Source: Methanomassiliicoccales archaeon PtaU1.Bin124
GTDB taxonomy: Archaea > Thermoplasmatota > Thermoplasmata > Methanomassiliicoccales > UBA472
Direction of reading: 5' to 3'
Length of the DNA: 51,426 bases
NCBI GenBank assembly: GCA_002067865.1
Contig: MVRC01000002.1
Coordinates: 1-51,426, forward strand
Position numbers and translations under genes: made by a program. Of the stretch, positions 1 through 51,426 are shown piece by piece (the first letter of the stretch is position 1; each line of letters starts with the position of its first letter). Under the pieces are notes generated by a model. It ran no database searches and had not been told where the DNA came from. It saw only the letters and a program-made list of their open reading frames with translations.

Positions 1-906
1 TTCGGCGGTTCGCTGTTCGACCCTGCCTCGAACGCCATGGTGGCCGACGTGGTGGAGCCGTCAAAGAGACTGGAGGCGTACGGTCTTTTGCGCATCGGGC
101 AGAACGTGGGATGGGCGCTGGGTCCGGTCCTGGGCGGCATCGTCAGCATCTGGCTGCCGTTCAGCTGGCTCTTCCTCATCGGCGCGGTGGCAACGGCCAC
201 AGTGTCCGTGCTCCTTTGGCTATATATCGAGGAATCGCTCCGCCAAGGCCAAGAGCGTAGCCGCTTCAAGGTGACCGATCTGGGCAAGGTCACGCACGAT
301 TCGATCTTCATGTTCTACTGCGCGGTCTCGGTGCTGCTGTTCATGAACTTCGGGCAGATGTCCTCCACCTATGCGGTCTACTCGACCGACACGCTCGGCA
401 TGACCGAGGCGGAGGTCGCCCTGCTTTGGTCCTGGAACGGCATCATGGTCATCTTCATGCAGATGCCCATCTCCCGCTGGATATCCAAGTATCGCATGAC
501 CACCATCATCTCCACCGGGTCGATGTTCTATGCGCTGGGATGGGGCATGGTCGGCCTGGCCGGGGCATTTCATCTGCTCTCCCCCTGGACCTTCACCTTC
601 CTGTTCGTCAACATGACCATCGTCACGATGGGCGAGATGTTCGTCTCCCCTGCCTCGATGAACCTCGTGGCCAGCATTTCCCCGGAGAACGAGAGGGGAC
701 GTTACATGGGGGTGTTCGGCCTGGCCTCCTCGCTTGGCTTCAGCCTTGGCCCGTTCACTGCCGGTCTCGTATTGGACAACCTCGCCGGACAGGACATCCT
801 GATGTGGGTGACGATCGGCCTGTTCGGAGTGATGGCGGCCATCGGATACCAGTTCCTCGGCCGCATATTAGGCAAAGAACGCGACAGCTCGGTTTCAAAG
901 GCGTGA
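1..906 (+). CDS. MFS transporter, 5'-truncated by window edge
   Basis: C-terminal two thirds of a 12-TM major facilitator superfamily permease. The frame is open from base 1 (FGGSLFDPASNAMVADVV...). Alignment by eye to the next gene puts base 1 near residue 119 of that protein, so about 118 residues lie outside the window. Successive hydrophobic helices and the loop PASNAMVADVVEP, matching PANNAMVADVVEP in the neighbour, support the family. The substrate cannot be told; the closest general resemblance is to multidrug/sugar efflux-type MFS proteins. The stop codon TGA (904-906) abuts the GTG of the next gene, so the two are probably co-transcribed. Family is sure; function is unknown. Confidence 0.9.
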   Translation, partial: FGGSLFDPASNAMVADVVEPSKRLEAYGLLRIGQNVGWALGPVLGGIVSIWLPFSWLFLIGAVATATVSVLLWLYIEESLRQGQERSRFKVTDLGKVTHDSIFMFYCAVSVLLFMNFGQMSSTYAVYSTDTLGMTEAEVALLWSWNGIMVIFMQMPISRWISKYRMTTIISTGSMFYALGWGMVGLAGAFHLLSPWTFTFLFVNMTIVTMGEMFVSPASMNLVASISPENERGRYMGVFGLASSLGFSLGPFTAGLVLDNLAGQDILMWVTIGLFGVMAAIGYQFLGRILGKERDSSVSKA

Positions 907-2115
907 GTGAACATGGCGCGTTTCATGTTCAAGGGCTACGACCATCGCATCTGGGTGCTGTTCTTCTCCATCCTCATAGACGGAACAGGTTACAGCATCA
1001 TCAGTCCGTTCCTTGCCATCTACATGCATGACAACCTGGGCATGAGCATGGCCGCAGTGGGCGTCGTGTTCCTGGTAGGTGGTATAGCCAGTGCCGTCGG
1101 TAACCTGGTCGGTGGTATCGCATCGGACAAGCTGGGCCGCAAGGGCGTCATGACCTATTCCATGCTGGCAAGGACATTGAGCTTCCTCGGGCTAGCGGTT
1201 CTGATAGCGGTCCAGCCGGACATGCTGTTGATCACCATCGTGCTATGCGGAACGTTCTTCTTCGGCGGAGTGTTCTCTCCGGCCAACAATGCCATGGTGG
1301 CCGACGTCGTCGAACCGGCCAGGCGCCTGGAGGCATATGGCCTGCTGAGGGTGGCATGGAACCTGGGGTTCGCCATCGGGCCTGCCATCGGCGGCGTGAT
1401 GCTGCTCTATTCGTTCTTCCTGACGTTCCTCACCTCGGCGCTCATCTCACTGGTGGCGGCATTGATGGTCGGGCTGATGCTGACCGAGTCTTGGACACCG
1501 AAACCGCAGGAGAAGAGGACCAGCTTGTTCAGGGAGATCAAGAACGTGAAGCTGGTGTTCCTCCTCTTCTGCCTGGCCTGCATCCCCATGTTCATCATGT
1601 CCGGACAGTTCGCGACCACCTATTCGGTGTATGCCAACGAGAGGGTCGGGATCGACACCTTCACCATCGGCCTGGTGTTCGGATTGAACGGACTCATGGT
1701 AGTTCTCATGCAGATGCCTCTGGCCAGGTGGTTAGAGCCATGGAACAAGTATCTTGCCATGGCCTTGGGCACGGCCATTTACACCATCGGTTACTTCATG
1801 GTCGGTTTGGTCTTCGACGGCCTTACGCTCGGTCTAAGCATGTTCGTCATCACCATCGGGGAGATGGTCGTCGTCCCGGTGTCCACCGACCTGAGCGTAT
1901 CGATGGCCACCGAGGATGAGAAGGGAAAATACCTGGGGGTCTTCGGGCTCATCACTTCGGTAGGCTGGTTCGGTTCCACCCTGATAGGGGGCGTTCTGTA
2001 CGACGTCATCAGCGTAGGCTGGTTGTTGTGGAGCGCGATCTCCTTGCTCGGGGTCGTCACCCTATTGGCCCTTCTGCCCCTGTGGCTACGGAACAGGTCC
2101 CCGACCGACATCTGA
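907..2115 (+). CDS. MFS transporter, full-length paralog of the upstream gene
   Basis: 402-residue integral membrane permease of the major facilitator superfamily. About 12 hydrophobic segments are visible. The loop 2-3 motif A appears as GGIASDKLGRKG near residues 69-80, and PANNAMVADVVEPARRLEAYGLLR follows around 125-148. It is a close paralog of the truncated gene just upstream, with identical stretches such as NAMVADVVEP and RLEAYGLLR, so this is a tandem duplication. The start is GTG at 907, directly after the upstream TGA; an in-frame ATG at 913 is equally possible. Substrate unknown. A heteromeric pair or sub-functionalised exporters are possible but not shown. Confidence 0.9.
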   Translation: MNMARFMFKGYDHRIWVLFFSILIDGTGYSIISPFLAIYMHDNLGMSMAAVGVVFLVGGIASAVGNLVGGIASDKLGRKGVMTYSMLARTLSFLGLAVLIAVQPDMLLITIVLCGTFFFGGVFSPANNAMVADVVEPARRLEAYGLLRVAWNLGFAIGPAIGGVMLLYSFFLTFLTSALISLVAALMVGLMLTESWTPKPQEKRTSLFREIKNVKLVFLLFCLACIPMFIMSGQFATTYSVYANERVGIDTFTIGLVFGLNGLMVVLMQMPLARWLEPWNKYLAMALGTAIYTIGYFMVGLVFDGLTLGLSMFVITIGEMVVVPVSTDLSVSMATEDEKGKYLGVFGLITSVGWFGSTLIGGVLYDVISVGWLLWSAISLLGVVTLLALLPLWLRNRSPTDI

Positions 2116-37399: not shown

Positions 37400-39397
37400 T
37401 TGCCTCTTCTGGCAGGGATCGTCGCCGATCCCTCATCAGATGAGGACCAAGAACTTGAACGAGGAGGCGAACGGGATTTGTATCAGACGAGCATCGAAAC
37501 AGAAAGCAACCGGATCTCGAGGGATCTCAATGCCCAAGGCATATCTGACATCACATTGTGGGCGAACCGAGGGGCAAAGGAGGTCTTTTGCCGGGATCAG
37601 GCAGACCTACCCCCACTGATCAAATCGATGATGTTCAAGGCAGAGCCAGCGGTCATCGTCCAGCCTCATTCTGCGACGGCCGTGAGCGCCATCCTCTCCT
37701 ACGCCTCCAAGAAAAAGATCCCGATCACTCCGCGCGGAGCCGGCTCCTCCCCGTTCGGTGGGGCTGTCCCAGTAAAGGGCGGGATCGTCATAGATATGAG
37801 CGTTATGGACCAGGTCATTTCCATCGATGAACAGAAGAAGGAGGCCAAGGTCCAGGCGGGTACCAGGTGGGGGGATCTGGATTGGCAGCTCGAGCCCAAA
37901 GGTCTCGCTATACGTTCCTGTCCTTCCTCTCGCTTTTCCACAGTGGGTGGATGGCTGGCCACCGGCGGAGTGGGGGTGGAGAGCTTCTCCGGAGGTCCTT
38001 TCTCCGACTCAGTGGTCGAAGCCGAGATCGTTCTTCCCAGTGGTGAGATCAAGACCATCACTCCAAGCGACTGTTTGTTCAAGTCCCTGGCCGGGAGTGA
38101 AGGCAGGGTCGCGGTCATCACCTCGATAACCTTGAAACTGAAGGAAAGACGGAAGGTCACCCCTCATCTCTTCGTTTTCAGTACGACCGATCAGGCCATC
38201 GATTTCGCCGAAGAGGTTGCCTCTACCGAAATCTATCCAGACGACATCGTTTACTACCATGAGGCGAAATTCGGTCATCTCAACAAGATCTTAGGAAAGA
38301 AGGTCTTTGTAGAATCCCCGGGCATCGTCATGACCGGCTGGAACCTGCCTCAAGGGAATGCCCTTCGGTCCCTGGCACGAAAATTTGGCGGCAGGGAAGA
38401 GGAGGACTACAAGGCATCGCTAGCATGGAATGAGCGTTTCTTCCCGATGAAGTTCCGATTGCTGGGTCCAGGTATGCTCGGTTCAGAGGCGATCGTGCCG
38501 AAGGATCATTTCAAAGCGGCCGTGAAGGCTGCCGAGACGACCGCCAGGCTGTATGGCCTCGAACCGATCATGGAATCGCACTTCGTCAAGGGCGGAGAGC
38601 GGCTTGTCCTCTGTTATTACATAACCGACCAGACCCGGTTGGCCAGCTACATGATGGATGCGGTCCGCTCCTTGCTCATCATGACGGCCATGGTGGACGA
38701 AGGTGCCAAGGCCTACTCCACTGGCCTATGGTACCATGTGTTCCTGGACAAGAAGGAACCAACGCACTCAGAGCGCGAGGCGCTGAAGAAAGAGATCGAC
38801 CCCTCCGCTTCCCTGAACCCTGGCAAGGGTAAGGTGCTGGCAGGAAGCATGGGCGGGATCCCGGCCAAGCTGCTCAGCCCTTCTATGGCCCCCGTCCTCA
38901 GATTGCTGAACAACGCCATGCCATTGACCAGTCGCGCCCTCGCCCTGGTCCAGAACGTCGAGGGCGTGGTCCTCGGCGCACAGGACCTGAGCGAACTGAC
39001 CCATGCGGCCAACGCCTGTGCCATGTGCGGCGCTTGCGTAAATGTATGTCCAGCATATCAGGCCACAAAGGATGACAGGGTCACAGCACGGGGTAAGCTG
39101 CTCACAGCCCGTATGATGGACCAAGGACGCGGGATATCCAAGGAGCATGCCCAGCGTACCTTCCTATGCATGAGATGCAAGGCCTGCGAGCAGGTGTGCC
39201 AATCGAAGCTGCACCTTCTGCCCCTCTATGATGAGCTGGAAGCCAAGCTCGAGGCGAAGTATGGAAGGGACCTGGATGAGATAACCAAGTTCGTCCAGTA
39301 CGTGGAGTCATCGCCGGAGTACGATGTCCTTCTGAAGAAGGGGCTGGTCATCGGTGCTCCGCGCAACGGTATGGACGGGAGGGATGGCAGTGTATAA
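37400..39397 (+). CDS. FAD-linked oxidase fused to two [4Fe-4S] ferredoxin motifs (GlcD-HdrC-like)
   Basis: 665-residue redox protein. The FAD-binding PCMH domain begins near residue 85 (VQPHSATAVSAILSYASKKKIPITPRGAGSSPFGGAVPVKGGIVIDMS), with the C-terminal FAD-oxidase domain to about 475 (PSASLNPGKGK). Ferredoxin motifs CAMCGACVNVC and CMRCKACEQVC follow near 540-600. The CCG domains of true HdrD/GlpC-type proteins are absent. GlcD-like enzymes oxidise 2-hydroxyacids such as glycolate or lactate; the substrate here is unknown. The start is TTG 37400 by elimination: TAG at 37388-37390 lies upstream in frame and the first in-frame ATG is near 37629. It overlaps the next gene by 14 nt. Confidence 0.88.
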   Translation: MPLLAGIVADPSSDEDQELERGGERDLYQTSIETESNRISRDLNAQGISDITLWANRGAKEVFCRDQADLPPLIKSMMFKAEPAVIVQPHSATAVSAILSYASKKKIPITPRGAGSSPFGGAVPVKGGIVIDMSVMDQVISIDEQKKEAKVQAGTRWGDLDWQLEPKGLAIRSCPSSRFSTVGGWLATGGVGVESFSGGPFSDSVVEAEIVLPSGEIKTITPSDCLFKSLAGSEGRVAVITSITLKLKERRKVTPHLFVFSTTDQAIDFAEEVASTEIYPDDIVYYHEAKFGHLNKILGKKVFVESPGIVMTGWNLPQGNALRSLARKFGGREEEDYKASLAWNERFFPMKFRLLGPGMLGSEAIVPKDHFKAAVKAAETTARLYGLEPIMESHFVKGGERLVLCYYITDQTRLASYMMDAVRSLLIMTAMVDEGAKAYSTGLWYHVFLDKKEPTHSEREALKKEIDPSASLNPGKGKVLAGSMGGIPAKLLSPSMAPVLRLLNNAMPLTSRALALVQNVEGVVLGAQDLSELTHAANACAMCGACVNVCPAYQATKDDRVTARGKLLTARMMDQGRGISKEHAQRTFLCMRCKACEQVCQSKLHLLPLYDELEAKLEAKYGRDLDEITKFVQYVESSPEYDVLLKKGLVIGAPRNGMDGRDGSV

Positions 39398-40760
39398 GCG
39401 CTACCACATCCACACCGAAGAGGCCCTTCCCAGGGTCGCGCCGGTGGGCAAGTTCGACATCGTGCGGGCGGAGAACTGCGTCAACTGCGGGACCTGCATC
39501 CGTTCCTGCGTCTACGGGGTCCATAAGCGGGACGAGAAGGACGGCCGCTCTATGGCCGAGCCCCTCAGCCATCTGTGCAAGAACTGCTTCCGCTGTCTGA
39601 TGGAATGCCCTCAGCGGGCATTGTCCATGTCGCCTGGGAAGGTGTACAATTCCCTCGGCATCGGCGTCTGGTCGCCGCAGAGGGTTTTCACCATGTGGAA
39701 CGAGGCGCAATCGGGCAAGATACCAGTGTTCGGGGCCGGATACCGGGGACGATTCTCCGGGCCTGGATTCGATGGAATGTGGACTGACATGTCCGAGATC
39801 GTCCGCCCTACCAGGGATGGCATCCACGGCAGGGAGTACATCTCGACCAGCATGAGCCTGGGCCGCAAGCTGCGCTATCTGGAGTTCGATCAGCAGGGAA
39901 GGCTCCAGACGGCAGTGCCACATGTCATCGAGCTGCCATTGCCCATGGTCCTGGACGCCACCCGCTTGGGCCTGACTGACGAATCGCTCAAGGGGATGGT
40001 GTCGGCCGCCGCGCACATCGGGACCTTCATTCTGGTACCGGTGGAAAAGACTGGGCTGTTCCGCGGTGAAGAACAGCAGTTCATCGTTCCAGTGCTTCTG
40101 GGCGGGACTCTTGAGCTCTCTCTTCCAGAGAGCACCAGGATGGTCGAGATCCGCCGATCGCCTGGCTGGGAATCATTGATGAGGCACGTGAAGAGCGCTC
40201 GGCCAGACGTCCTGGTCTCTGTCAGGTTGAACGCTGGCAAGGACGTTGAATCAGAGGTCCTGCAGATCGCCAAGGCCGGGGCGGACATCGTGCATTTGGA
40301 CTTCGGTGAGGACGGGAAGGAGGCAGGTAACGATGGCCGATGGGCTAGGGACGCCCTGCGCTCCATCCATACCAATCTCGTCAGGAACGGACACAGGGAC
40401 CAGATCACAATTCTGGCCGGAGGGGGCATCGCCGCTGCAGAACACGTTCCAAAGAGCATCATATGCGGGGCCGATTGCATCGTACTGGAGAAGGCGCTGA
40501 AGGTGGCCTTGGGCTGCCATGCCTGCCCCGACTGCAAGATGACCTGTCCGGCCGATCTCAAGACCGCACCGTCCGACTGGGTGGAGAAACGCGTCACGAA
40601 CATGGTGGGCGCCTGGAGGGACCAGCTCCTTGAGGTCATGGGAGCGATGGGCATCAGGGAGGTCCGCCGCCTGCGTGGAGAGCAGGGCCGGGCCATCTTC
40701 TACGAGGATGCAGAGAGGGACGCATTTGCTGGAATAACCGCAGCTGAAAGGAGTGGTTGA
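39384..40760 (+). CDS. Degenerate glutamate synthase GltB2-like protein with ferredoxin domain
   Basis: 458-residue paralog of the next gene. N-terminal ferredoxin: C32/C35/C38/C42 (CVNCGTCIRSC) and C65/C68/C71/C75 (CKNCFRCLMEC). A TIM-barrel-like segment follows with KAGADIVHLDF and LAGGGIAAAEHV, then CHACPDCKMTC in the place of the GltS Fe-S cysteines. The active-site loops of GltB2 seen in the neighbour (GGMSYGS, EGGYPDAL, AQGAKPGLGGHL) are not recognisable, so it may lack FMN chemistry and act as a structural or electron-relay partner. The start is ATG 39384 or GTG 39390; the latter is better spaced from GGGAGG. Overlaps the FAD oxidase gene. Confidence 0.82.
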   Translation: MAVYKRYHIHTEEALPRVAPVGKFDIVRAENCVNCGTCIRSCVYGVHKRDEKDGRSMAEPLSHLCKNCFRCLMECPQRALSMSPGKVYNSLGIGVWSPQRVFTMWNEAQSGKIPVFGAGYRGRFSGPGFDGMWTDMSEIVRPTRDGIHGREYISTSMSLGRKLRYLEFDQQGRLQTAVPHVIELPLPMVLDATRLGLTDESLKGMVSAAAHIGTFILVPVEKTGLFRGEEQQFIVPVLLGGTLELSLPESTRMVEIRRSPGWESLMRHVKSARPDVLVSVRLNAGKDVESEVLQIAKAGADIVHLDFGEDGKEAGNDGRWARDALRSIHTNLVRNGHRDQITILAGGGIAAAEHVPKSIICGADCIVLEKALKVALGCHACPDCKMTCPADLKTAPSDWVEKRVTNMVGAWRDQLLEVMGAMGIREVRRLRGEQGRAIFYEDAERDAFAGITAAERSG

Positions 40761-40761
40761 A

Positions 40762-42255
40762 ATGAACGATGATCTGTGCGATACCGAACCGAACCCCCAT
40801 GTCCCGTCCCAGCGCCTCAAGGCCGTCAGCCGTAACGCCGTCATCAGGAACGAGGCAAGCTGCATATCTTGCGGGCTGTGCGAATCGCTCTGCCCATACG
40901 GTGTGCACCGCCGCATCGAAGGCCATGTGCACCTCCTACCTCCCTATGAAGGTAAGTGCATCGGTCCAGAATGCGCCAAGAACGACTTCTATTGTGTGAA
41001 CCGCTGCCCCACCCGCTCGCTCAGCGTGAAACCCAATGTCACCTTCACCAGCCTGGGTGATTTCCGCTGGACCTCGGAGATGATCCTTTCCACGTGGAAG
41101 ATCGCCGAGACCGGACAGCCATTACCGCTCGACCATCCGGCCAACATGGGTCGCTCGGGCGGAGGGTTCGATACTCTCGCGTTCAAGATACCTGCGGCCA
41201 AGGGGAACCCAGACCCGGACAGGTTCTCCACCTCCATCGAGCTGAACCGCAGGAAGGAAGGCCCGCGCCTGAAGATCGGCATCCCGGTCTATGGGGGAGG
41301 CATGTCTTATGGCTCGGTCAGCTTGAAGGTCATGACCGCCAGGGCCATCGTGGCCAAGCAATGGAACACCCTTACCTGCACTGGCGAGGGTGGTTATCCA
41401 GACGCGCTGGTGCCTTACAGCGACCACGTGGTGACTCAGGTCGCCACAGGTCTGTTCGGGGTCAAGGAGGAGACCATCCAGAGGGCCCCGATGGTGGAGT
41501 TCAAGTACGCCCAAGGCGCAAAGCCAGGCCTGGGCGGTCATCTGCTGTACGAGAAGAACACCCCGATGGTGGCCAAGATGCGCCAGGCCGTGCCGTACAC
41601 CAGCCTGTTCTCTCCGTTCCCGTTCCACAGCGTGTACTCCGTGGAGGATCACAAGAAGCATCTGGACTGGATCCATTCGATAAATCCCAGGGCCCTTTTG
41701 TCCGTCAAGGTCTCGACCCCCAACGACGTGGAGATGGTGGCGGTCGGTTCCTACTATGCCGGCGCCAACATCGTCCACCTGGATGGCGGATATGGAGGCA
41801 CAGGAGCCGCGCCGGAGATCGCCAAGAAGAACATCGCCCAGCCCATCGAATATGCCATCTCCAAGGTGCACAAGTTCCTGGAGAAGGAAGGCATCCGCGG
41901 CGATGTCACGCTGATCGCATCGGGTGGCATCCGCAATGCCATGGACGTGGCCAAGGCCATCGCCCTTGGTGCAGACGGCGTGGTCATCGGAACCGCTGAG
42001 CTGGTCGCCATCGGCTGCGTTCGCTGCGCCAACTGCGAGAGCGGCCGGGGCTGCCCCAGGGGCATCGCCACCACCGACCCGCAGCTGGAGGTCCAGAACG
42101 AGACCGAGGTCATGGTGCGCCGGGTGAGCAATCTGTACAATGCCTGGAGGCTGCAGTGGTGCGACCTGCTGAACCGTTTCGGCATGGACGACATCACCCA
42201 ACTGCGCGGAAGAACGGACCTTCTCAGACGCGTTCCCGAGGGGGTGGCCCAATGA
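40762..42255 (+). CDS. gltB: Glutamate synthase FMN/Fe-S domain protein (GltB2) with N-terminal ferredoxin domain
   Basis: 497-residue protein. Ferredoxin motifs are C34/C37/C40/C44 and C66/C71/C78/C82 (spacing of the second cluster is unusual). The FMN-binding glutamate synthase core then shows YGGGMSYGSVSLKVM, TCTGEGGYPDALVPYSD, YAQGAKPGLGGHL, LLSVKVSTPNDVEMVAVGSYYAGANIVHLDGGYGGTGAAPEIA, ASGGIRNAMDVAKAIALGADGVVIG and CVRCANCESGRGCPRGIAT (3Fe-4S-type site). It reduces 2-iminoglutarate to glutamate in GltS. ATG 40762 is preceded by an excellent Shine-Dalgarno AAAGGAG (40747-40753), just after the upstream stop. It overlaps the next gene by ATGA (42252-42255). Confidence 0.93.
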   Translation: MNDDLCDTEPNPHVPSQRLKAVSRNAVIRNEASCISCGLCESLCPYGVHRRIEGHVHLLPPYEGKCIGPECAKNDFYCVNRCPTRSLSVKPNVTFTSLGDFRWTSEMILSTWKIAETGQPLPLDHPANMGRSGGGFDTLAFKIPAAKGNPDPDRFSTSIELNRRKEGPRLKIGIPVYGGGMSYGSVSLKVMTARAIVAKQWNTLTCTGEGGYPDALVPYSDHVVTQVATGLFGVKEETIQRAPMVEFKYAQGAKPGLGGHLLYEKNTPMVAKMRQAVPYTSLFSPFPFHSVYSVEDHKKHLDWIHSINPRALLSVKVSTPNDVEMVAVGSYYAGANIVHLDGGYGGTGAAPEIAKKNIAQPIEYAISKVHKFLEKEGIRGDVTLIASGGIRNAMDVAKAIALGADGVVIGTAELVAIGCVRCANCESGRGCPRGIATTDPQLEVQNETEVMVRRVSNLYNAWRLQWCDLLNRFGMDDITQLRGRTDLLRRVPEGVAQ

Positions 42256-44876
42256 TCGGATACACCAAAGAACTGATCGGATCCAGGGAATGGATGATGG
42301 ACTGCGCCCTGCCGAAATGGCTGAAGTCGGAGGAGGCCGAGGGCGGATGCGGCGTGGTCGGACTGACCAGCACCGTGCCGGTGGAAGGGAAGCATTTCTT
42401 CGAGGCGCTGGCCCAGATGCACAACAGAGGCAACGGGAAGGGAGGCGGCATCGCCGCCGTCGGCCTGATGCCCGAGCAGATGGGCGTATCACGCGAGGTG
42501 CTCGACAGCCATTACCTGATCCAGGTGGCCTACATCCGGCCAGAGGTAAGGGAGGAACTGGAGAACGAGCACATCAAGAGCAACTTCCTCATCCACAAGT
42601 CCATCCAGGTGGATGAATCGAAGGACCCAGGGCTATTAGCCAGGCTGGAAGTAAGGCCACCCACGGTGGTGCGTTACTTCTGCCGTGCCAGACCTGAGGT
42701 GCTGGAGGCGTTCATCAAGGAGAAGGGGCTGCAAGGTCTGGAGAGGGCCAGGGCGGAGGACGAGTTCGTCAACCAGTCCAGCTTCCGCATCAATCACAAA
42801 TATTACGCCACATCGAACATGGCAGCGTTCGTGATGTCCCAGGGGCGGAACATGCTCATCATGAAGATCGTCGGTTACGCCGAGGACGTCATCCGGTATT
42901 ATCGCATGGAGGAGTTCAGGGCGAACATATGGATCGGCCACCAGCGCTATCCTACCAAGGGAAAGGTATGGCATCCCGGCGGGGCGCATCCCTTCATGGG
43001 GCTGGACGAGGCACTGGTCCACAACGGCGACTTTGCCAACTACTATGCGGTCTCGGAATACCTGGCCCAGAGGAACGTCACTCCCTTGTTCTTGACCGAC
43101 ACAGAAGTCTCTGTGCTCCTGTTCGATCTATTGAACCGCACCTACCGATATCCGCTGGAGTACATACTTGAGGCGCTGGCCCCGACGACGGAGAGGGACT
43201 TCCATCAACTATCGCCGGAGAAGCAGGCGCTGTATCACGCCATCCAGAGCACTCACATGCATGCATCACCGGACGGCCCTTGGTTCTTCATCATCGCACG
43301 CAATTGCCATTATGATGGAGAGATGCAGCTGATCGGGATCACTGACACATCCATGCTCCGGCCCCAGGTGTTCGCGGTGGTCGAGGGCGATATGAGGGTC
43401 GCACTGGTGGCATCTGAGAAGCAGGCCATCGACGCCACGCTGACCTCACTTTCGCAGCAATATCCCTCGGTGCCGAAGAGGGCGGATGTCTATTGGAATG
43501 CCAGGGGCGGAAGCCATACCGATGGCGGGGCCTTCATATTCAACCTGCGTCCAGACGGTAAAGGTCTCAAGCTGACCGTGACAAACAAGTTCGGGGCGGA
43601 GGTCAGCACGAACGTATCCCAGTGGGACCAGAAGGCAGACCTGGAGCTGGCCACCCCCACCCCGAACATGACCCCGGGGGCATGGGCCAGAAGATTGGCG
43701 ATCACAGATGCCGAGCCGGTCTTCCAGGAGATCGTGGCCACGATCCCCAAGATGTCCGTTAACGATGTCCAAGGACTGCTTTCCGATATTGCGTCCTCGG
43801 CATCACTGGGACCATCCGAAATGAAGCGTTCCATCGACCTGTTGACGCTCCTGATCGACCGGCGCTATCCCACTGGCCCGTACCGGCGGAGCAGGTTGGT
43901 GACCCTTTACGAGGAGACCTTGAACCGTATCCTCAGGTCCATCCCAGTTGTCCAGGAAAGGAAGGGCGGCAGATATGCCAGGGTCGATGTCAGGCACCGT
44001 GCCGGCATCGTCGTCCCAGCGGATGGGCAGGAGGTACTGGCCATCGATTGCCGCGACTTCCCCATGGAAGGTGACGAAGGTCCATCGTTCGCCATAGTGG
44101 AAGGGGTGAGGAACGGGTGGAAGAACTTCATCATGTTCGATGCGCATGGCCAGAGGTTCTTCGGTTGCGGCATAGGTTCGAACTCCAAGGGCGTTCGGAT
44201 CGACGCATATGGCACACCTGGCGATTATCTGGCATCGGGTCTGGATGGAGCCGAGATCGTGATCCATGGCAACGGGCAGGACCAACTTGGGCAGATCCTC
44301 GGATCAGGGAAGCTGGTCGTGCACGGCGATGTGGGCCAGACATTCATGTACGGTGCCAAGGGCGGCGAGGTGTTCATCATGGGCAATGCCGCGGGCCGCC
44401 CCCTCATCAACGCAGTGGGAAGGCCGAGGGTCCTCATCAACGGGACATGCCTCGACTATCTGGCCGAATCGTTCATGGCCGGTGATCCGTTGAACGGCGG
44501 AGGGTTCGTGATCTTGAATGGGATGAAGATCGATGCCGCAGGTGTCCCTGTGGAACTTCCCGCCCCATACCCGGGCGGCAACCTCTTCTCCCTTGCTTCC
44601 GGCGGGGCCATATACATACGCGACCCGCACCAGATGGTGGGTGAGGATCAGCTGAACGGAGGAAGGATATCCAAGCTTACGGCGTCCGATTGGGACCTTA
44701 TTCTGCCGTATCTGCAGGAGAACGAACGGCTGTTCAGCCTAAAGGTCGGCGATCTGTTGACAGTTGAAGGTCAGGTGAAGGAACCAGACCAGGTCTACCG
44801 TAAGGTGGAAGCGGTCCCCGTGGCCACTGCTGCCAATAAGGTCGCTCTCAATGACGACGAGTCTGCTGGCGATTAA
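42252..44876 (+). CDS. Glutamate synthase class II amidotransferase (GltB1) fused to GXGXG domain (GltB3)
   Basis: 874-residue protein. The N-terminal glutamine amidotransferase has the nucleophile candidate C33 in GGCGVVGLTS, behind a 32-residue leader instead of the bare N-terminal Cys of processed GltB. Glutaminase residues appear as IGHQRYPTKGKVWHPGGAHPF and LVHNGDFANYYAV. The middle and the C-terminal beta-helix (GXGXG) domain from about residue 635 show GCGIGSNSKGVRIDAYGTPG, IHGNGQDQLGQ, GKLVVHGDVGQTFMYGAKGGEVFIMGNAAGRPL and LNGGGFVILNG. It releases ammonia from glutamine for the GltB2 site. In other archaea these domains are often separate proteins. ATGA overlap with gltB2 indicates translational coupling. 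Confidence 0.93.
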   Translation: MIGYTKELIGSREWMMDCALPKWLKSEEAEGGCGVVGLTSTVPVEGKHFFEALAQMHNRGNGKGGGIAAVGLMPEQMGVSREVLDSHYLIQVAYIRPEVREELENEHIKSNFLIHKSIQVDESKDPGLLARLEVRPPTVVRYFCRARPEVLEAFIKEKGLQGLERARAEDEFVNQSSFRINHKYYATSNMAAFVMSQGRNMLIMKIVGYAEDVIRYYRMEEFRANIWIGHQRYPTKGKVWHPGGAHPFMGLDEALVHNGDFANYYAVSEYLAQRNVTPLFLTDTEVSVLLFDLLNRTYRYPLEYILEALAPTTERDFHQLSPEKQALYHAIQSTHMHASPDGPWFFIIARNCHYDGEMQLIGITDTSMLRPQVFAVVEGDMRVALVASEKQAIDATLTSLSQQYPSVPKRADVYWNARGGSHTDGGAFIFNLRPDGKGLKLTVTNKFGAEVSTNVSQWDQKADLELATPTPNMTPGAWARRLAITDAEPVFQEIVATIPKMSVNDVQGLLSDIASSASLGPSEMKRSIDLLTLLIDRRYPTGPYRRSRLVTLYEETLNRILRSIPVVQERKGGRYARVDVRHRAGIVVPADGQEVLAIDCRDFPMEGDEGPSFAIVEGVRNGWKNFIMFDAHGQRFFGCGIGSNSKGVRIDAYGTPGDYLASGLDGAEIVIHGNGQDQLGQILGSGKLVVHGDVGQTFMYGAKGGEVFIMGNAAGRPLINAVGRPRVLINGTCLDYLAESFMAGDPLNGGGFVILNGMKIDAAGVPVELPAPYPGGNLFSLASGGAIYIRDPHQMVGEDQLNGGRISKLTASDWDLILPYLQENERLFSLKVGDLLTVEGQVKEPDQVYRKVEAVPVATAANKVALNDDESAGD

Positions 44877-46434: not shown

Positions 46435-47049
46435 TCACTGGTTCATGTTCTTGACCAATTCCCATCTCTCCTTGATGATGTCCAGTGAACCAGTAGTCTC
46501 CTCGTGATGAAGATCGAGGACCTTGGCAAAATTACAGGAGCATTTGCGGGCATGGGCCACGTCGCCTTTCCCAGTGTCAATGAACAGGCAGCGGGAGAAG
46601 CCTTCGAAGATCATCTTCAGCACCTCGTCCTCCTTGTAACCCTGGTCGGCTACGCAATCCATGTGGAACAACTTGTTGAGCCCATCCATTCCGTAGGTCG
46701 CCCATCCGCTCGGATAGAACCAGGTTATCCCTCCATTCTTCTTCTGACGGTGGTATTCCTCCGTTCCAAGAAGGGAAGCGATGCAGTCCTCATCCTCCAA
46801 CATGACCGTGGGCAAGCTCAGCTCGAGCGGTAGACCTTTCAGCGCCTGGCAATGAGCGTATCCCAGGAAAACGACATCCGCCTTGCCCTTCAGCGATTCT
46901 ACCTTTTTCTTCAATTCCTGCTTCATGGTCTCCGGCTCAAGGTGGAGTCCAAAGTCCAGATACTCTTTGGAGACGATCTCCTCATCTCCCGCCACTACAG
47001 ACTCGATCTCTTCACGGATTGCATCGCAGGCCACTATCGCGATTCGCAT
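46435..47049 (-). CDS. DUF1638 family protein
   Basis: 204-residue protein of the DUF1638 family, common in methanogens and often near corrinoid methyltransferase genes. Motifs: IVACDAIREEIESVV at the N-terminus, VVFLGYAHCQALKGL, LEDEDCIASLLGTEEYHRQ and YPSGWATYGMDGL. Several conserved cysteines could bind a metal or cofactor. The function has not been established to my knowledge. No methyltransferase genes lie near it here. It begins 116 nt from the divergent Bat-type regulator at 47166. Confidence 0.85.
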   Translation of the reverse strand: MRIAIVACDAIREEIESVVAGDEEIVSKEYLDFGLHLEPETMKQELKKKVESLKGKADVVFLGYAHCQALKGLPLELSLPTVMLEDEDCIASLLGTEEYHRQKKNGGITWFYPSGWATYGMDGLNKLFHMDCVADQGYKEDEVLKMIFEGFSRCLFIDTGKGDVAHARKCSCNFAKVLDLHHEETTGSLDIIKERWELVKNMNQ

Positions 47050-48402: not shown

Positions 48403-49473
48403 ATGACCACCAGGATAGCGATCATAGGGGGATTCCTCGGAGCGGGCAAGACCACCATAATCAACAAGCTGGCCAAATCATTGAAGGAGAAGGGGAACAA
48501 TGTGGCCATCATCACCAATGACCAGGGCGAGGCATTGGTCGACACCAAATATTGTGCCGACAACGGCATCGAGGTGGCAGAGGTGCTCCGCGGTTGCTTC
48601 TGTTGCAAGTTCCCTGATTTCATGCATTCCGCTCGCGGACTGGTGGGCAGCAAGGGGCCCGAGGTCATCCTGGCTGAACCGGTCGGTTCATGCACCGACC
48701 TTCTCGCCACTGTCGTGGCACCGTTGAAGGTCATGTATCCCAAGGAGTTCACCGTCGCCCCGCTCGTGATCCTGGTGGACTCGGAGCGAGTGCTGGAGCA
48801 AGGCTTCGACCCTGAGAAGATCGGCGATTACCTGCGGAAGCACCAGATCATGGAGGCTGAGCACGTTGTGTTGTCGAAGACCGACAAGGTCACGGCGGAA
48901 GAGCTCGACGAGATAAAAGAGGTCATCACGACCCTGAACCCCCATGCCCACATCATATCCTATTCCGCCATCACGAACAAAGGGCTCGACAAGATACTGG
49001 CGATCATCCTTTCCAACGATGTCAGCGCCAGGACCCCGGTGGACATCGACTACGACATCTATGCCAAGGCCGAGGCCGAGCTGGGTTGGTATAATGGAAC
49101 CTTCCGCTTCCATGCGAAGGACAAGGTCGATGGCTATGACATCGCCACCAAGGTGTTGCGTTCCATCGCCGCGCAGTATGGCGCCGATGATATCGCCCAT
49201 GCCAAGATCATGCTGCAATCGGAAAGATCGAGCATGAAGATCAGCTCGGTCATGCAGAACATCACCGTGGACAACGTTTCTGGCTCACGTTATGCCGATG
49301 GGAATGTGACCCTCACGGTGAATGCCAGGATCGTCTCATCACCTGAAATGCTCAGGCAGACCGTGAGGATGGCCGTGCAGAAGACCATGGAACAGGCCAA
49401 CATAGCCATGAGCGGGTTCGAGGACGACTGCTTCTCGCCGTCACGGCCGAACCCCACCCATCGGATGAAGTGA
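48403..49473 (+). CDS. CobW/G3E-family GTPase (CxCC)
   Basis: 356-residue P-loop GTPase of the COG0523/G3E type. Walker A GGFLGAGKTT (9-18), the metal motif GCFCCKF (C65, C67, C68) and the guanine-specificity SKTD in VVLSKTDKV are visible. The C-terminal domain (ELGWYNGTFRFHAKDK...) differs from the usual CobW_C, but is shared with the paralog at 50189. G3E GTPases load metals (Zn, Co, Ni) into target enzymes; the metal here is unknown. A TATA-like ACATATATCTA (about 48358-48367) precedes the ATG by 35 nt. The set with the Cys-rich regulator and second copy spans 48403-51307. Confidence 0.88.
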   Translation: MTTRIAIIGGFLGAGKTTIINKLAKSLKEKGNNVAIITNDQGEALVDTKYCADNGIEVAEVLRGCFCCKFPDFMHSARGLVGSKGPEVILAEPVGSCTDLLATVVAPLKVMYPKEFTVAPLVILVDSERVLEQGFDPEKIGDYLRKHQIMEAEHVVLSKTDKVTAEELDEIKEVITTLNPHAHIISYSAITNKGLDKILAIILSNDVSARTPVDIDYDIYAKAEAELGWYNGTFRFHAKDKVDGYDIATKVLRSIAAQYGADDIAHAKIMLQSERSSMKISSVMQNITVDNVSGSRYADGNVTLTVNARIVSSPEMLRQTVRMAVQKTMEQANIAMSGFEDDCFSPSRPNPTHRMK

Positions 49474-49535
49474 ACGATGGAACGATTTAAAAAAACAGTT
49501 AAAACTCAAATAATAGAGGGAGGGTATTAATCCCC

Positions 49536-50153
49536 GTGAAGTCCAACTGCAGGATCGAGATAGCACACATCGACCCCGAGACATACACCTCGCTGGTCAA
49601 TCATGATCTGCGGAAGCAGATCCTGCGCACTCTCTATTCCATGGCAAAGGGAGGCCCGATCACGAAACAGCAGTTGGCCGACCGGGTCGGGGCAGGCTAT
49701 CATCAACTCGTCTATCAGCTGAACAATCATCTGCAGGACTTCTGGACCGTCAAGGAGGAACAGAAGGTCAGAGGCACCCGGATGGAGCTGATCGCTCCAG
49801 CGTATCCAGACACCATCTTCATCTCGATCGGGAAGGACAACGGCATCTTCATCGTCGACCCGATAGCCAATCTGTTCGGTGCGCTGCACAAGGTCGGCAC
49901 TCGTTGTGACCAGTGCAGCCCCCACGAATCCCGCAGATGCGTCAACCATGCCATGCAGGGAGGATGTTGCTCGCGCGAGCCATCCGAGACGGAGATGGCA
50001 CTTCTCATGGCCAACGGCCGAAAGCTTCCGTTCCGGGTCGTCGACCAGGCCATTCTCTGTGCGCTTCGCGGGATACCTGAAGGAAGCACCTGCGCCATCG
50101 AGATCCCCTGCGATGGCTGTGCCTTCATGAAGAAGTTCATCGCGGTCCATTAA
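49536..50153 (+). CDS. Winged-helix protein with Cys-rich sensor region
   Basis: 205 residues. The N-terminal HTH (SLVNHDLRKQILRTLYSMAKGGPITKQQLADRVGAGYHQLVYQLNNHL) resembles ArsR/MarR winged helices. The C-terminal half holds CDQCSPHESRRCVNH, GGCC and CAIEIPCDGCAF, at least nine cysteines with two His, apt for a metal or Fe-S sensor. Family unknown. GTG 49536 is preceded by GGGAGGG (about 49518-49524). It lies between two CobW-like GTPase genes and so may regulate metal insertion; this is an inference. The TATA-like GATTTAAAA near 49483 suggests its own promoter. Confidence 0.75.
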   Translation: MKSNCRIEIAHIDPETYTSLVNHDLRKQILRTLYSMAKGGPITKQQLADRVGAGYHQLVYQLNNHLQDFWTVKEEQKVRGTRMELIAPAYPDTIFISIGKDNGIFIVDPIANLFGALHKVGTRCDQCSPHESRRCVNHAMQGGCCSREPSETEMALLMANGRKLPFRVVDQAILCALRGIPEGSTCAIEIPCDGCAFMKKFIAVH

Positions 50154-50188
50154 TTGAGTTCCGGGGAAAGCATTTAACGGCCTAAAAC

Positions 50189-51307
50189 ATGCCCTGCGGC
50201 ATGACCCCCGCTACCAGCAAAAGAACGAGATTTGTGATTCTGGGCGGTTACCTCGGTGCAGGCAAGACCACGTTGGCGGCAGCATTGGCGAAGCAGCTGC
50301 GGGACGTGCATGGACGTTCGGTCGCGGTCATAACGAACGATCAGGGGGACGCTCTCGTCGACACGGCCTACATGAAGAATGCCGGGGTGGACGTGCGTGA
50401 GGTGCTGGGGGGTTGTTTCTGCTCGCACTTCGATGAGTTCGTCAAGAGCGCCCGAAGCCTTGTCAACATGGTCCGTCCGGACATCATCATCGCCGAGCCG
50501 ATCGGCACATCTACCAATGTGCTGGCATCGGTCGTCGCCCCGCTCCGGGAAATGTATCCGGACGAGTTCGAGGTCGCTCCGCTGTTCGTCGTCCTGGACC
50601 TATCCAGGGTGGACGAGACCCTTAAAAAGGCATCGTCCTTCGGATTGGGAGGGGGCAGGATCATACCATCTCACCAGGTGCATGAGGCGGAGATGGTGCT
50701 GCTGACCAAGGCGGACCTGGTGAACGAGGCCGCGATCCAAGGTGCGGTGGCCCGATTGGCCCAGGAAGTGCCGGATGCGAAGGTACTGCCAGTGAGCGCC
50801 AGGACCGGAACTAACATCGAGGCGCTGGCACAGTTCGTCTCTTCAGGTGCGACATCATCCAAGGCGGCCTTGGGGGTCGATAACCGCATGTTCGCCACTG
50901 AGAAGGCGACCATGGGGTGGTATTCGGGAACGGCGGAGGTGGAGTGCGGCGATAGAGGCGATGCCTATGCTATCTGCCGTAACATCCTGGATAAGGTCGG
51001 AACCGCCTATGGAGGGGACAACATCGGCCACGTCAAGCTAGTGTTCGAATCGGAGGCGGCCTCCCTTAAGATGTCCCTGGTGGCCGATTCCGCCCAGGTG
51101 GACGGGATCAAAGGCGGGCGTTACGCCAAGGGGAAGGGCAAGATGGTCATGAACGCACGAATCATGGCCCCGCCCACGGAGATCCGCAAGACGATGGAAA
51201 AGGCGTTGCGCAACGTCTGTGATGGTATGGGAATGACCATAACCAGTTACCGGGACAGCGTCCTCAGGCCGGTCCCGGAGGTCCCCGATCATTTCAGAAC
51301 CAAGTGA
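50189..51307 (+). CDS. CobW/G3E-family GTPase paralog (CxCS)
   Basis: 372 residues. Walker A GGYLGAGKTTLAAALAKQL (from residue 19), DQGDALVDTAYMKNAGVDVREVLGGCFCSHF (C76, C78, then Ser79) and TKAD in VLLTKADLV. Its C-terminus (MFATEKATMGWYSGTAEVECGDRGDAY) is the same kind as in the 48403 paralog. The third Cys of the G3E metal site is Ser here, so metal affinity or role may differ. ATG 50189 or 50201. The TATA-like CATTTAACG (50171-50179) is too close to ATG 50189 for a leaderless start. It is the last complete gene in the window. Confidence 0.88.
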   Translation: MPCGMTPATSKRTRFVILGGYLGAGKTTLAAALAKQLRDVHGRSVAVITNDQGDALVDTAYMKNAGVDVREVLGGCFCSHFDEFVKSARSLVNMVRPDIIIAEPIGTSTNVLASVVAPLREMYPDEFEVAPLFVVLDLSRVDETLKKASSFGLGGGRIIPSHQVHEAEMVLLTKADLVNEAAIQGAVARLAQEVPDAKVLPVSARTGTNIEALAQFVSSGATSSKAALGVDNRMFATEKATMGWYSGTAEVECGDRGDAYAICRNILDKVGTAYGGDNIGHVKLVFESEAASLKMSLVADSAQVDGIKGGRYAKGKGKMVMNARIMAPPTEIRKTMEKALRNVCDGMGMTITSYRDSVLRPVPEVPDHFRTK

Positions 51308-51426
51308 AGTGACCCCATCCTAGGCCAGCCTGAAAAACATGTACTGCTTTCCGTGCATTTCCGCAATTTTATATAGAGAATCCGCCAATTTTGCGTATAC
51401 AGGCGTGTTCGGTTACCGGGGAGGGG
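51308..51426 (+). promoter_or_regulatory. Intergenic region with a TATA box at the window end
   Basis: TTTTATATAG (51367-51376) is a good TATA-like element. No start codon of a following gene is convincing before the end; the promoter probably serves a gene beyond the window. Confidence 0.5.

Follow-up and report, generated by a model that had tools for sequence, protein, structure and literature searches.

A conserved, catalytically silent GltB2 paralog as a probable partner of the active subunit in a variant glutamate synthase

Glutamate synthase is one of the main entries of nitrogen into metabolism. In a 51,426-nucleotide stretch of DNA from Methanomassiliicoccales archaeon PtaU1.Bin124 (contig MVRC01000002.1, positions 1 to 51,426; hereafter the window), four consecutive genes at positions 37400-44876 encode a protein with a flavin adenine dinucleotide (FAD) domain and iron-sulfur clusters, two GltB2-like proteins, and a protein (B1/3) in which a class II glutaminase domain is fused to a GXGXG domain. 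Glutaminase, active-type GltB2 and GXGXG domain together make up the component set of a glutamate synthase, and on this basis the four genes are read as a complete enzyme, presumably with glutamate as its product. The first GltB2-like protein, here called B2', is the product of window 39384-40760, the coordinates given in an initial annotation and found to be correct, and is a full-length paralog of its neighbour B2. It is a real, conserved and unusual subunit; the cassette is best called a variant form of glutamate synthase and not a system of a new kind. We consider it probable that the four products form one heteromeric glutamate synthase, in which B2' would be an obligatory, silent, central-domain-like partner that usually also accepts electrons. 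The findings point to a widespread heteromeric enzyme, present in many anaerobes among the archaea and bacteria, that keeps a dead copy of its catalytic subunit as a conserved partner and has exchangeable electron donors.

B2' and B2 share 27% identity over 485 columns (E 2e-39), and B2' aligns from the ferredoxin domain through the C terminus with a profile of single GltB2 proteins over 407 columns (E 5.8e-54), values that rule out a chance resemblance. This profile was built from 25 distinct single GltB2 sequences (alignment A8), after removal of three duplicate genes, two long GltB and the divergent L166. The Pfam family Glu_synthase (PF01645) matches B2' at profile positions 181-368 only (58.5 bits, cut-off 20.4), which cover the barrel segments already recognised in the initial annotation, while B2 is matched at positions 54-368 (293 bits). 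In the profile alignment the loop IGQGAKPGxGGHLPGEKV is missing from B2' and GEGG is replaced. The motifs GEGG, QGAKPG, GGMS and YSxED were present in all 56 cassette B2 proteins; among 79 B2' they were found only in L128, a natural fusion that contains B2, apart from one incidental GEGG elsewhere. Both comparisons confirm the earlier remark that the catalytic loops of B2' are unrecognisable. B2' does not show an intact set of flavin mononucleotide (FMN) and substrate sites, as the substrate loops are deleted. The phosphate-site glycines G347 and G348 remain; together with a third, G362, and with K357 they do not vary across the 65 rows of the B2' alignment (A2), so that FMN binding by B2' is still conceivable.

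The two ferredoxin clusters proposed for B2' hold up fully, with eight of eight cysteines present and invariant in 65/65 rows. The C-terminal cysteines noted at the same time (378, 381, 384 and 388) are present in the window protein and are no rule of the family: all four occur in 49 of the 65 rows, three in 2 rows and none in 14. The word "degenerate", used in the initial annotation, does not do justice to B2', in which residues 130-153 form a strictly conserved stretch without counterpart in B2. The longest invariant run of B2' falls in this pre-barrel part, outside the ferredoxin domain, which is partly an effect of locus selection.

A whole-protein search over 61 genomes, the window's own and 60 relatives, gave some match at E<=1e-10 in 38 of them, B2 and single GltB2 included; fourteen near-complete B2' were aligned (alignment A1), thirteen of which were 51-57% identical to that of the window. 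A scan of GTDB genomes with the patterns MWTDMSE and PTRDGIHG yielded 549 confirmed stretches, the best 80 of which (L052-L131) were kept and underlie the locus counts given here. Because the scan used these motifs as patterns, their invariance within the 80 loci is partly a matter of selection. Independently of the pattern scan, the motif was found in 14/14 sequences of A1, and a profile search of 389 genomes (E<=1e-60; 30 matches in 29 genomes) recovered DMSEIVRP[TS]RDGIHGRE in 30/30. Among the best 80 of the 549 stretches, the B2' family is represented in Methanomassiliicoccales/Thermoplasmatota, ANME-1, Methanocellales, deltaproteobacterial groups, Chloroflexota, Aminicenantes and others. 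Its sequences thus describe a conserved family and not a decaying gene. No account of a B2'-type module was recognised in the literature searched, which comprised openly accessible papers judged by their titles and abstracts.

B2 comes after B2' in the same orientation in 74 of the 80 loci. The six exceptions are four loci that stop at a contig edge (L066, L084, L096, L122), the fusion L128, and an ANME-1 locus, L090, which carries the FAD protein gene and B2' without B2 in the ~8 kb downstream, where a YcaO-type-looking gene is found instead. A second natural B2'-B2 fusion, L140, came from the profile search. The initial annotation had proposed that a non-catalytic paralog is maintained beside the active copy, and this arrangement indeed recurs in several phyla.

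In single GltB2 proteins a stretch of the type GTD..FDDLLLDAAQVTNPSIDPLRE precedes the barrel. The core VTNPxIDPxRE was present in 29 of the 31 sequences collected, in all 25 rows of A8 and in 11/11 bacterial GltB central domains, and was matched in 0/11 GltB synthase domains, 0/56 cassette B2 and 0/79 B2'. At the position aligned with it, B2' carries IVRP[TS]RDGIHGRE (derived motif IVRPTRDGIHGRE). As far as sequence can tell, bacterial GltB and the cassette are alike in that one copy keeps the pre-barrel segment without catalysis and the other copy does the reverse. According to an excerpt of PMC8097209, the ammonia tunnel is lined by the central and synthase domains of GltB, and Met479 of A. 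brasilense may govern transfer between the 3Fe-4S cluster and FMN. By alignment offset, Met479 would map to GSMGDDTP, directly ahead of the motif; near the equivalent position B2' has Ala118, in 61/65 rows. By its motifs the divergent GltB2-like barrel L166 represents another GltB2 subfamily: it has GEGG, QSAKPG and a rubredoxin-like CxxC pair at the N terminus, and lacks VTNPxIDPxRE.

An AlphaFold2 model of B2' built on the 65 rows of A2 has a mean predicted local distance difference test score (pLDDT) of 88, a predicted template modelling score (pTM) of 0.88 and a full barrel. Its best structural match is the synthase domain of bacterial glutamate synthase (GltS; 2vdc_A, residues 782-1179; VIA Z 25.7), and Foldseek also ranks GltS first. 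Residues 111-150 are the least confident in-chain stretch (block means pLDDT 54-70), though among the most conserved, as if this segment needed a partner. The natural fusion L128 (1063 aa, 21 rows), modelled without templates (pLDDT 70, pTM 0.62), superposes as one body on the central plus synthase domains of GltS (2vdc_A, chain 448..1180; Z 32.3, 618 residues, 4.5 A), while single-domain FMN barrels reach a Z of 24.6 at most among the matches listed. In this model the signature segment lies under pLDDT 50 and is not ordered. The superposition supports a placement of B2' in the position of the central domain, unless it echoes GltS in the training data.

In the enzyme that we propose, B1/3 would hydrolyse glutamine, and B2 would bind FMN and 2-oxoglutarate and form glutamate. 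The pre-barrel segment and barrel of B2' would lie beside the B2 barrel, in place of the bacterial GltB central domain, and would help to complete the region of FMN, 3Fe-4S cluster and ammonia tunnel. The ferredoxin domain of B2' would usually take electrons from an interchangeable donor and pass them to B2, the candidate donor being the FAD/Fe-S protein in the window and elsewhere MvhD, often with MetV-MetF.

The exchange of donors is seen in the genes upstream of B2', which encode the FAD protein in 51/80 loci and MvhD and/or MetV-MetF in 28/80, the last locus (L103) having too little upstream sequence. Among the 28 non-FAD loci MetF was found in 22 and MvhD in 25, the other three being MetV-MetF without a listed MvhD; in L111, MetV-MetF lies downstream of B2'. 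In L131, L121, L119 and other deltaproteobacterial loci, MvhD-MetV-MetF stands directly before B2'-B2-B1/3. Loci with this trio possibly encode a methylene-tetrahydrofolate-linked glutamate synthase. Donor type goes together with the spacing of cluster I in B2': CxxCxxCx3C occurs in 50/50 FAD-type B2' (L069 having no row) and in 0/28 of the MvhD type, in which 26 have Cx4C and 2 are otherwise. This association suggests, rather than proves, docking of the donor at cluster I. Donor type changes three times on a barrel-only tree, once as forced by the starred (well-supported) branches, and with so few changes a test on independent pairs gave no p-value. The best match of the B2' ferredoxin domain in the PDB is the C-terminal ferredoxin domain of HdrA (5odc, E 1e-9, residues 26-83), which according to an excerpt of PMC9012536 receives electrons from MvhD.

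Twenty-two more distant loci from the profile search (L140-L161) show that the clusters can be lost. In 21 of them Cys 32, 35 and 38 are gone and Cys 75 is replaced by His, while counterparts of 42, 65, 68 and 71 (cluster II) are kept; the assignment of ligands to clusters I and II is our assumption from ferredoxin topology. Twenty of these loci come from one GTDB family and one from another, and the fusion L140 has lost all ferredoxin ligands. The N-terminal ferredoxin cysteines of B2 were also gone (0 or 1 left) in four such distant B2 inspected. Five regions lacking cluster I (L213, L214, L215, L217 and L218, with L214 partial) and L216, around L140, yielded no homolog of the FAD protein or of MvhD; B1/3 follows in all six. 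The pre-barrel motif and the barrel are retained in all 22 loci, and their persistence after cluster loss means that a role as relay only does not explain B2'.

Other readings of these data have to be weighed against a partner role. The initial annotation suggested a heteromeric electron-relay or structural role; the two are not mutually exclusive, as the clusters are usual and sometimes lost. That B2' is solely a relay, with a functional ferredoxin domain and the silent barrel as a leftover scaffold, would agree with the invariance of the eight cluster cysteines, with the likeness to the MvhD-fed domain of HdrA (excerpt of PMC9012536) and with the adjoining donor genes. We nevertheless regard it as unlikely, given that motif and barrel survive with one cluster (21/22 loci) or none (L140), that neither an FAD nor an MvhD gene turned up next to L140 or in wider readings of five one-cluster regions, and that the longest invariant run lies in the pre-barrel segment, allowing for the part of locus selection in this. 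B2' might instead retain FMN as a second flavin centre or as a metabolite-sensing regulator, without being a structural partner. The invariant G347, G348, G362 and K357 and the complete barrel of the model speak for this, but with the substrate loops deleted, and with glycines at the phosphate site that could be structural, it too appears unlikely. It is more improbable still that the compound aminated by the cassette is another oxo acid or an amine, for which N-methylglutamate synthase offers a comparison, with B2' tuning the choice of substrate. In its GAKPGEGGQ loop B2 does differ from bacterial GltB, with L in place of E and H in place of Q, and a separate GltB2 persists in many of the window's relatives, but all 25 single GltB2 of A8 have this H as well (GGHLPG), the glutaminase is intact, glnA, amtB or glnK lies near in 22/80 loci, and 42 of 50 named genomes lack another strong copy. 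The loss of the active-site loops might also suggest a decaying, pseudogene-like paralog. With open frames and a strict signature in several phyla, a conserved gene order and natural fusions, decay is scarcely credible, and conservation rules it out in practice.

Several observations also count against B2' as an obligatory, central-domain-like partner of B2. In sequence it is nearer to the synthase than to the central domain of GltB (hhalign E 8e-14 and 4e-5, respectively), and its match to the Pfam central domain (PF04898; 18.3 bits) is under the cut-off of 22.8. Its placement comes from one model of modest confidence, with a signature segment that is not well predicted, and AlphaFold2 may echo GltS itself from its training data. 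L090 has B2' and no B2 within ~8 kb downstream, a separate split GltB2 is retained in many relatives of the window, and the association between donor and cluster I amounts to some three changes on the tree.

The closest known system is the alpha subunit (GltB) of bacterial NADPH-dependent GltS, with a central domain (423-780) and a synthase domain (781-1202). Here, too, a silent truncated barrel with AQVTNPPIDPxRE stands beside an active FMN barrel lacking the motif, and the fused B2'-B2 model superposes on both domains. The GltB central domain is, however, covalently joined and without ferredoxin clusters, whereas B2' is a subunit on its own whose sequence is nearer to the synthase barrel, whose predicted barrel is complete and whose motif differs. 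With split archaeal-type GltB2 it shares two [4Fe-4S] clusters, the pre-barrel segment and the barrel along its whole length, but GltB2 is catalytic with VTNPxIDPxRE in cis, and in B2' the substrate loops are gone and the motif is altered. The ferredoxin domain resembles that of HdrA in its setting with MvhD, yet B2' has no HdrA flavin or thioredoxin-reductase domain and is not part of a heterodisulfide reductase. The MvhD-MetV-MetF trio recalls the Moorella MetVF-HdrABC-MvhD complex, as described in excerpts of PMC5736913 and PMC9012536; in the loci examined it accompanies B2'-B2-B1/3 and not hdrABC.

B2', B2, single GltB2 and GltB synthase domains each form one side of a branch with 100% bootstrap in the barrel tree, from which the GltB central domains were left out as too divergent, and single GltB2 and GltB synthase group together (99/96). 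A tree constrained to hold B2 and GltB synthase together is 5.9 log units worse and is not rejected (p-AU 0.171), so one or two duplications are both compatible with the tree. These results bear on the origin of the GltB central domain, a truncated barrel for which duplication and independent origin are both possible according to an excerpt of PMC8097209. The C-terminal part of this domain matches the single GltB2 profile (E 4.5e-16), and duplication of an FMN barrel is favoured because single GltB2 has the central-domain motif ahead of an active barrel. It is conceivable, though less likely than not, that B2' and B2 keep as two genes the split that in fused form made the central and synthase domains of GltB, as a living counterpart of that step by shared descent or by repetition, and that the MvhD-MetV-MetF loci couple one-carbon chemistry to glutamate synthesis through B2'. 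If this were true, methyl/methylene-tetrahydrofolate chemistry would be tied directly to glutamate synthesis in these loci.

Table 1. Genes of the cassette and segments of B2' in the window.
Feature	Positions	Strand	Remarks
FAD_binding_4 protein with two [4Fe-4S], proposed electron-input subunit	37400..39397	+	start codon uncertain, TTG per mechanical open reading frame call
B2', catalytically silent GltB2 paralog	39384..40760	+	458 aa
B2' ferredoxin domain	39477..39608	+	Cys 32, 35, 38, 42, 65, 68, 71, 75
B2' pre-barrel segment, residues 114-155	39723..39848	+	signature WTDMSEIVRPTRDGIHGRE; aligned with VTNPxIDPxRE segment of single GltB2
B2' (beta/alpha)8 barrel lacking substrate loops (residues 181-375)	39924..40508	+	AlphaFold2 model
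B2' C-terminal Cys cluster (378-388)	40515..40547	+	counterpart of GltS 3Fe-4S site
B2, GltB2 catalytic subunit	40762..42255	+	GEGG, AQGAKPG, YSVED and 3Fe-4S-type Cys intact
B1/3, class II glutaminase domain fused to GXGXG domain	42252..44876	+	Pfam

The start of B2' overlaps the upstream gene by 14 bases, one base separates B2' from B2, and B2 and B1/3 overlap by four, so the four genes look translationally coupled (Table 1). In Pfam the FAD/Fe-S protein matches PF01565 (E 3.5e-38) and Fer4_8 (E 2.4e-10), with no CCG domain listed, and its eight cluster cysteines (window-protein positions 540-600) are kept in 31/31 aligned homologs. H..G.GN.H is the type of substrate/metal motif found in 2-hydroxyacid dehydrogenases such as GlcD; it was matched in 0/31 of these homologs, and a glycolate/lactate-type dehydrogenase is thus unsupported. 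B2 also matches the GltS synthase domain (E 1.1e-46). B1/3 matches GATase_6 (E 2.9e-6) and GXGXG (E 5.5e-10) and carries an internal GGCGVVG, which we take to be the pattern expected of a processed N-terminal cysteine nucleophile.

The 22 loci with glnA, amtB or glnK were counted within the fetched stretches; glnA is adjacent to the FAD gene in 11 loci, its end lying ~1.7-2 kb ahead of B2'. Another strong PF01645 copy (E<1e-30) was found in 8 of the 50 named cassette genomes and in none of the other 42, as counted by eye in a set with many incomplete metagenome-assembled genomes. In the window genome, which has three PF00120 (glutamine synthetase family) matches, no other GltB2 appears above the weak range. 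A weak third PF01645 match (L003, G000:C12:305919-306113), restricted to profile positions 242-305, is probably another FMN-type barrel. The contig ends just past the gene at window 48403-51426, beside which L047 and L050 carry canonical split gltB1-B2-B3, and the lack of a canonical copy in the window genome may therefore be an assembly gap. In L086, a Desulfobacteraceae metagenome-assembled genome, a long canonical GltB open frame directly follows B2'-B2-B1/3. A DUF1638 protein (PF07796, E 1.5e-29) is encoded near the cassette at window 46435-47049 on the reverse strand.

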